A stretch of DNA of 62,575 nt from an uncultured Flavobacteriales bacterium (GTDB lineage Bacteria > Bacteroidota > Bacteroidia > Flavobacteriales > Flavobacteriaceae), in assembly GCA_913058295.1 (NCBI GenBank), contig CAJXRD010000011.1, positions 1 through 62,575 on the forward strand, in the 5' to 3' direction. The position numbers were made by a program, and so were the translations under genes. The number at the start of each line of letters is the position of its first letter. The stretch's first letter is position 1. The notes below the pieces were generated by a model. That model was not told the origin of the DNA and did no database searches. It saw only the letters and a list, made by a program, of their open reading frames with translations. This document shows positions 32,170 to 34,543 of the stretch, piece after piece.

Positions 32170-33999
32170 ATGAAAATAATAGCAATGATTCCTGCACGAT
32201 ATGGTGCATCTCGTTTTCCGGGAAAGTTAATGCAAGATTTAGGAGGGAAACCTGTAATTGTTCGAACCTACGAAGCAGCTAAAGCAACCAATCTTTTTGA
32301 TGAAGTATATATTGTTACCGATAGTGAAGTGATTTTTACTGAAATAGAACTTCATGGCGGAAAGGCAATAATGAGCAAAAAAGATCATGACTGTGGTAGT
32401 GATCGTATAGCGGAAGCCGTAGAAGACATGGATGTTGATATTGTTGTGAATGTGCAAGGAGATGAGCCGTTTACCAGTAAAGAAGGTCTTGAGCAGGTTT
32501 TAAGTGTATTTGAAGGAGAAGATGCAGATAAAATAGATTTAGCATCATTAATGACTGAAATGCATGATTGGAAAGAAATAAGCGATCCAAATAGTGTAAA
32601 AGTAATTGTTAATAAAGAGAACTTCGCTTTATATTTTTCTCGGTCTCCAATTCCTTATCCAAGAGATAAAAATGCCGATGTTCAATATTATAAGCATAAA
32701 GGAATTTATGCATTCAGAAAACAGGCTTTAATGGATTTTTATCACCTTCCAATGCGAACATTAGAAGCTGCAGAAAAAATAGAATGTATACGTTACCTTG
32801 AATATGGTAAAAACATCAAGATGGCGATTTCTAATACTCAAGGAATAGAAATTGATACTCCAGAAGACTTAATACGTGCAAATAAAGCATTAAAAGAAGA
32901 TAAAGATATAAGTGTAAATAATAAATATAGAAACTTTCCTATGGTTCCAAAAGTAGTTTTTGGAAAAGGATGTTTCGACCAATTATCATCCATATTAGCA
33001 CCACAAAGAAAAAATAAAGCGCCATTTATATTTTTAGTAGATGATGCTTTTGAAAATGATCACCCATTAATTGATAGAATTAATTTACGATTTAATGATA
33101 AGTTATTATTTGTATCTGCTAAAGAAGAACCAACAACCGTTCAGGTAGATCAAATAGTAAAAGATATAAAATCAGAATTTAATTATAAACCTTCTGGAAT
33201 TATTGGAATAGGGGGTGGTTCTATTTTAGATTTAGCAAAAGCAGTATCTATTATGCTTACCAATAAAGGTAGTGCAGCAGATTATCAAGGTTGGGACTTA
33301 GTGAAGAAGAAAGCTGTTTATCATGTTGGGATTCCTACCATCTCCGGAACAGGAGCCGAAGTTTCTAGAACAACGGTACTCTCAGGTCCTGTACGTAAAT
33401 TAGGGATTAATAGTGATTACACACCTTTTGATCAAGTAATATTAGATCCAAATCTAACCATTGGAGTTCCTAAAAATCAATGGTTTTTTACAGGAATGGA
33501 TTGTTTTATTCATTGTGTAGAATCTCTTAATGGTACCTTTCTAAATGCCTTTAGCGAGAGTTATGGTGAAAAGGCATACGATCTTTGTAATGAAATATTT
33601 TTAAGTGATGAATTATCCGAAGTAGAGTCTAGAGGTAAATTAATGATGGCTTCATGGCATGGAGGAATGAGTATAGCTTATTCTCAAGTAGGAATCGCAC
33701 ATGCAATGAGTTATGGAATATCTTACGTTCTTGGTACAAAGCATGGCGTAGGGAACTGTATTGTATTCGATCATTTAGGAGACTATTATCCGGAAGGTGT
33801 TGCATTGTTTAAGAAAATGGTTGAAAAATACCAAATAGAAATTCCTCAGGGTATTTGTAAAGATTGTACAGAAAAGGAGATTGAAACAATGATTGAAATC
33901 GCATTAAGTTTAGTTCCATTATGGGAAAATGCTTTAGGAGAAGATTGGGAATCTATTATGACACGTGAGAAACTTAAAAGCATGTATTTAAAAATGTAA
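32170..33999 (+). CDS. kdsB: KdsB-KdnB fusion: CMP-Kdo synthetase plus Kdo 8-oxidase
   Basis: Two enzymes of Kdo sugar metabolism are joined in 609 residues. Residues 1-245 are a full 3-deoxy-manno-octulosonate cytidylyltransferase ([40 protein letters not shown]). After a linker of about ten residues, residues 253-609 are an iron-containing alcohol dehydrogenase of the KdnB type ([29 protein letters not shown]). Its likely metal ligands are Asp444, His448, His511 and His525. Established knowledge: in Shewanella KdnB oxidises Kdo at C8 and KdnA then aminates it to give 8-amino-Kdo. The reading frame is clean through the junction. No KdnA gene is in the window. An acyltransferase gene follows after seven bases. 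Confidence 0.9.
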
Positions 34000-34006
34000 A
34001 ATATTT

Positions 34007-34543
34007 ATGTTTTTATATAAGTTTATTTTTATTACTGCTTTAGGCTGGAAATTAGAAGGGGATTTTAGCCCTCAAATCAAAAAATCTTTGGTAATTGTTG
34101 TACCGCATACAAGTTGGTATGATTTCTTTATTGGTGTATTTACTAGAGGTATTTTAAAAACACCTGTCAATTGGGTAGGTAAGAAGGAATTATTTATGTG
34201 GCCTTTTGGATATTACTTTAGATACATGGGAGGCGCTGCTTTAGATAGAACTTCTGGACAAAACAAAGTTGATGCGATTGCTCATATTTTTAATGCTAAT
34301 GAAGAGTTTAGAATGGCTATGGCACCAGAAGGAACTCGAAAAAAAGTAGATGCTTGGAAAACAGGCTACTATTATATTGCACAAAAAGCCAATATTCCAA
34401 TCATTCCTGTAGCTTTTGATTATGAACATAAAGAAGTACGTATAGGAAAACCATATTTTATTACTAATAATATAGAAAAAGATACAGAATTTCTTCGTTC
34501 CTTTTTTAAAGGAGTAAAAGGTAAGAATCCAGAATATTCATAA
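34007..34543 (+). CDS. 1-acyl-glycerol-phosphate-type acyltransferase
   Basis: A 178-residue PlsC-like acyltransferase. The catalytic motif is PHTSWYDF (HxxxxD); MAPEGTRKKVDAWKTGYYYIA gives motif III, and IPIIPVAFD motif IV. One short N-terminal hydrophobic segment could anchor it to the membrane. Its length is below that of PlsC (~240). It begins seven bases after the KdsB-KdnB gene and ends at a terminator, so the two are cotranscribed. It may acylate a glycerolipid or a lipid A component; which one is open. Confidence 0.88.
   Translation: MFLYKFIFITALGWKLEGDFSPQIKKSLVIVVPHTSWYDFFIGVFTRGILKTPVNWVGKKELFMWPFGYYFRYMGGAALDRTSGQNKVDAIAHIFNANEEFRMAMAPEGTRKKVDAWKTGYYYIAQKANIPIIPVAFDYEHKEVRIGKPYFITNNIEKDTEFLRSFFKGVKGKNPEYS

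Follow-up and report, generated by a model that had tools for sequence, protein, structure and literature searches.

A KdsB–KdnB fusion gene in Flavobacteriaceae as a probable bifunctional enzyme of CMP-8-amino-Kdo synthesis

An amine on the innermost core sugar, as in 8-amino-Kdo (Kdo8N), alters the charge of the cell surface and would, in marine bacteria, affect the stability of the outer membrane. In the 2013 work of Gattis, KdnB reportedly oxidises Kdo at C8 in an O2- and metal-dependent manner, and the KdsB of Shewanella is said to act on Kdo8N. PMC6357163 refers to Kdo8N as a hallmark of Shewanella, and PMC5125639 cites Gattis 2013; one of PMC6357163, PMC5125639 and PMC4052302 also describes Kdo8N as confirmed in “other bacterial species,” none of which is named there. 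The relevant passages in these three papers concern Shewanella, and we found none on Kdo8N chemistry in any Bacteroidota. The solved KdnB of Shewanella oneidensis (5k8c) and its counterpart Sden_2133 of S. denitrificans (3rf7) each consist of one domain, with 358 and 375 residues, respectively.

In the window analysed here, a stretch of 62,575 nucleotides from an uncultured Flavobacteriales bacterium, KdnB instead forms the C-terminal half of a fusion with KdsB. Positions 32170-33999 of the forward strand hold a single frame of 609 codons with zero internal stops, encoding a complete KdsB (CMP-Kdo synthetase), a short flexible linker and a complete KdnB (Kdo 8-oxidase) in this order. An earlier sequence-only reading had proposed one clean frame, the identity of both halves and a linker of about ten residues; the ORF check as well as profile, PDB and structure comparisons bear this out. 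We infer that the product is quite probably a bifunctional enzyme of CMP-8-amino-Kdo synthesis, which would be served by KdnA in trans.

The KdsB domain (CMP-Kdo or CMP-8-amino-Kdo synthetase; residues 1-241, 32170..32892, + strand) matches PF02348 with E 5e-50, and scores of 190 bits for residues 1-234 against TIGR00466 kdsB (curated cut-off 155.2) and of 269 bits for residues 1-244 against NF003952 (cut-off 193) are both above threshold, while Foldseek superimposes it on 1h6j with a TM of 0.86 normalised by target. Like the KdsBs of Escherichia coli (3k8d) and Aquifex aeolicus (2y6p) and like KpsU (1gq9), it is a complete domain with the PARYG, QGDEP, and DTPEDL motifs, but unlike these it is joined to KdnB. 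The catalytic motifs are invariant in 40/40 aligned fusions, as are the Mg-A site residues Asp98 and Asp229, and judging by the motifs the two aspartates would be the counterparts of D95/D219, given as Mg-A ligands of A. aeolicus KdsB in PMC3149649. This is the only KdsB match in the window genome, and a search of the 97.6%-complete draft found no second one. The KdnB domain (Fe-ADH fold; residues 252-609 plus stop, 32923..33999, + strand) is homologous over its whole length to 5k8c and 3rf7, with 52–54% identity in structural alignment. Its metal site was correctly read from the letters, as Asp444, His448, His511, and His525 match the Asp/His ligands of 5k8c, are kept in both Shewanella proteins and are invariant in 40/40 aligned fusions.

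The transaminase KdnA had been expected to lie outside the fusion, and the genome search placed it on another contig. Of the DegT-family matches in the window genome, three are strong and six weak. The strong one on contig C40 has KdnA of S. oneidensis (5k8b) as its best PDB hit (E 2e-146; next hit 4e-53) and represents its orthologue, whereas a second strong match is not KdnA. The earlier assignment to the Kdo to 8-amino-Kdo pathway was judged right. KdsA of this genome is above the cut-off, and the WaaA homologue is below the NCBIfam cut-offs. Tests of 34 other fusion genomes detected KdnA in 33, made up of 28/28 chosen from 78 loci and five of six of the same genus, one of the latter being cut by a contig end; the exception, G013, is a fragmented, 87%-complete genome. 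When 58 relatives were sorted by hand, 34 had both KdnA and KdnB, one had KdnB only (G013), none had KdnA only and 23 had neither. In the plasmid collection, KdnB gave no match at E 1e-60.

In the proposed route, the KdnB domain would oxidise Kdo at C8 to give the aldehyde, KdnA, encoded by its own gene, would convert this 8-aldehyde to Kdo8N by transamination, the KdsB domain would activate Kdo8N with CTP to CMP-Kdo8N, and WaaA would transfer Kdo8N from CMP-Kdo8N onto lipid A. The fusion would thereby hold the oxidase of the committing step and the enzyme that activates the sugar at a 1:1 ratio and in proximity, and KdnA would bind or visit it in trans. Judging by gene content, there are hints that Kdo8N, known from Shewanella, may be made by many marine Bacteroidota as well.

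The fusion is widespread beyond the window genome. An open fused frame was found in 78 of 80 loci of the genome collection, two of the 78 being cut by contig ends and the remaining 2/80 being split; these 80 are the best-scoring of 348 relatives, which biases the fused proportion towards full-length matches. Carriers include Aequorivita, Ulvibacter, Cochleicola, Altibacter, Aureisphaera, Aureitalea, Marixanthomonas, Patiriisocius, Luteirhabdus, Planktosalinus, and Aquimarina. After removal of duplicate and incomplete loci, 78 were fused, 17 had adjacent genes and 33 had at least 300 nt between the two. Of 18 same-genus relatives, six carry the fusion, 11 carry adjacent separate genes and one, an 83%-complete draft, has neither. 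A stop at the junction in sister genomes had been named beforehand as evidence against a fusion, and such a stop does occur in the 11 split relatives; since the frame runs on without interruption in the two closest relatives, at 98% and 92% identity, however, the fusion is real and lineage-specific. Combined open-frame length was rejected as a proof of fusion, as it lumps same-frame neighbours (in G011, 671 versus 250 and 367 in the ORF check). In one split relative, G018 (L211), kdnB was matched in two frames, reflecting either an assembly error or decay.

A simple operon fusion, in which the stop and start between two neighbours were lost and the halves act independently with co-expression as the sole gain and no channelling, is about as likely as not. 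In the 11 same-genus relatives with split genes, 15–208 nt separate the kdsB stop and the start of the matched KdnB, and their KdnBs begin with M-S/A-VNN where the window reads I-SVNN, the place of the KdnB Met being taken by ATA (Ile247, 32908-32910). The linker (residues 242-251, 32893..32922, + strand) is poorly conserved among 40 aligned fusions and floppy in the predicted structure (pTM 0.62; pLDDT <50 at residues 243-257). Against such a simple joining stands the frame kept open in the 78 non-redundant loci, down to about 70% identity, which may, however, simply reflect the difficulty of splitting, and the scarcity of internal starts, with 25/79 fused loci having no ATG, GTG or TTG in the linker and only 4/79 having an ATG. 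The window linker likewise contains no in-frame ATG, GTG or TTG, and KdnB is thus probably made here only as part of the fusion. The stretch that spans the KdsB and KdnB motifs measures 28 residues in 64/79 fused loci and 37 in seven, Aquimarina among them. For the bifunctional enzyme that we prefer, channelling is possible; the flexible, poorly conserved linker favours co-production over a rigid tunnel, and the 11 split relatives indicate that fusion is not required.

With regard to the origin of the fusion, a tree of 94 rows united 44 fused and 11 same-genus adjacent rows in one clade (support 92/81), next to a clade of 29 gapped rows. Parsimony on this tree needed two changes, yet an AU test did not reject a grouping of all 44 fused rows (p 0.27). 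The fusion may have arisen once or several times, or some lineages may have split it again later.

A more elaborate option is a KdsB–KdnB–KdnA complex, which would pass on both the 8-aldehyde and Kdo8N and for which the fusion would serve as a scaffold. Two of the three enzymes are indeed fused, fusion genomes nearly always keep KdnA, and kdnA, kdsB, and kdnB are direct neighbours in both G343 and G768, the same enzymes as here but encoded by separate genes. In the window genome, however, KdnA is found on another contig, and none of the loci inspected showed it linked to the fusion; we regard such a complex as rather unlikely.

It is more improbable still that the KdnB half acts on another substrate, e.g., a different sugar alcohol, or carries out an NAD-linked dehydrogenation. 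Kinship is no proof of substrate, and in G130 (L202) a diverged KdnB (48% identity, long branch) lies beside a Gly-type KdsB in a genome with no KdnA match at E 1e-60, where it was perhaps re-purposed or is decaying. Nevertheless, among solved Fe-ADHs the half is closest to KdnB in sequence and structure, with residues 252-607 matching 5k8c at E 3.5e-131 and residues 252-606 matching 3rf7 at E 9.9e-133, whereas the next Fe-ADH follows at E 1.6e-26; the grouping with a clade far from KdnB, raised as a counter-scenario by the sequence-only reading, was thus seen in neither comparison. The close co-occurrence with KdnA and the joining to KdsB likewise argue for Kdo as substrate. Finally, the window comes from a 95-contig draft, but an assembly or sequencing artefact can practically be dismissed, as the identical open junction recurs in isolates and MAGs across many separate records.

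Alignment of the KdsB rows further pointed to residue 227 (Glu, codon GAA, 32848..32850, + strand) as a candidate specificity residue. It is located two residues before Asp229, the likely Mg ligand, and an acidic side chain at this position could, as a hypothesis, pair with the 8-ammonium group of Kdo8N. Glu was present in 70 of 71 KdsB rows of KdnB-positive Flavobacteriales (fused rows thinned), the sole exception being G130, and Gly in 19/19 chosen rows of KdnB-negative Flavobacteriales. The five solved KdsB chains compared, two of which are the same E. coli enzyme, all have Gly at this site, 1gq9 and 3k8d among them. Unlike the window genome with its single KdsB, G343 keeps two, of which the copy flanked by kdnA and kdnB has Glu and the other Gly. 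Glu227 was also found in all of ten genomes of other families positive for KdnA and KdnB, whose KdsBs show 49–64% identity.

In more distant families, KdnB-positive genomes carried Pro (eight of family f7, including G381, in which KdnA was detected in pieces only), Cys (three others) or Ser (one); the two KdsB copies of G764 have Ser and Thr, and three f32 genomes with weak KdnA/KdnB matches have Gly, Ala or Ser. Among 30 phylum-set control genomes picked by handle number, 19 had a KdsB, with Gly in nine, Ala in six, Ser in three and Glu in one. Taken over 127 rows, residue 227 was Glu 74, Pro 8, Cys 3, and Ser 2 times in pathway-positive genomes and Gly 30, Ala 6, Ser 3, and Glu 1 times in pathway-negative ones. 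A closer set of 90 rows gave Glu in 63/63 pathway-positive and 1/27 pathway-negative rows, G130 having been re-scored as pathway-negative afterwards. Phylogeny-corrected independent-pairs tests yielded three and four supported pairs and never an opposite one, which is not significant in these underpowered tests. Glu227 thus marks an extensive group of KdsBs associated with KdnA/KdnB and is not universal; as a specificity switch it is a candidate that fails in distant KdsB lineages. G570 (L300) has a Glu-type KdsB, and a search of this genome found no KdnA and no KdnB at E 1e-70; a recent loss of the pathway, or another reason for Glu, is possible.

More speculatively, Glu227 could adapt KdsB to the amino sugar, and the cell would then make mainly or only CMP-Kdo8N. 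Extended to a large marine clade of Flavobacteriaceae, this would mean that Kdo has been replaced by 8-amino-Kdo, with the sole KdsB retuned by a Gly-to-Glu exchange beside the Mg-binding Asp, permanently joined to the committing oxidase, and plain CMP-Kdo hardly made; we offer this picture tentatively and lean slightly against it.

The enzymes and the pathway are already known. The sequence-only reading knew of no published account of the fusion, and in the open-licence PMC literature searched, with passages from PMC6357163, PMC5125639, PMC4052302, PMC12058783, PMC5036845, PMC8510873, and PMC3220709, none was found either; the same search yielded no account of the fusion's spread, the whole pathway in Bacteroidota or Glu227. 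The gene evidence predicts Kdo8N in many Bacteroidota, for which the natural KdsB–KdnB fusion provides a handle, and Glu227 offers one assayable residue for how a CMP-sugar synthetase distinguishes an amino sugar from Kdo.

Other Flavobacteriaceae show the order kdsB, HAD gene, kdnB, plsC, with the same enzymes encoded by separate genes. A HAD-type hydrolase motif was present in 28 of the 33 gapped loci and a CAT-like acetyltransferase in 3/10 of those inspected by eye, one gene of each kind having been assigned by Pfam; L032 103-1449 and similar unfused loci show the HAD and sometimes the acetyltransferase between kdsB and kdnB, and the latter enzyme could act on the amino sugar. In the window genome, the best HAD match is on contig C6 (58% identity). 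Next in the probable operon, beginning 7 bases past the fusion stop, is a PlsC-like acyltransferase gene (34007..34543, + strand; PF01553). Such a gene follows kdnB 3′ on the same strand in 112/128 loci, and 13 of the 16 loci without a match have less than 700 bases of room; this constancy suggests a link of the acyltransferase to the same lipid A product.
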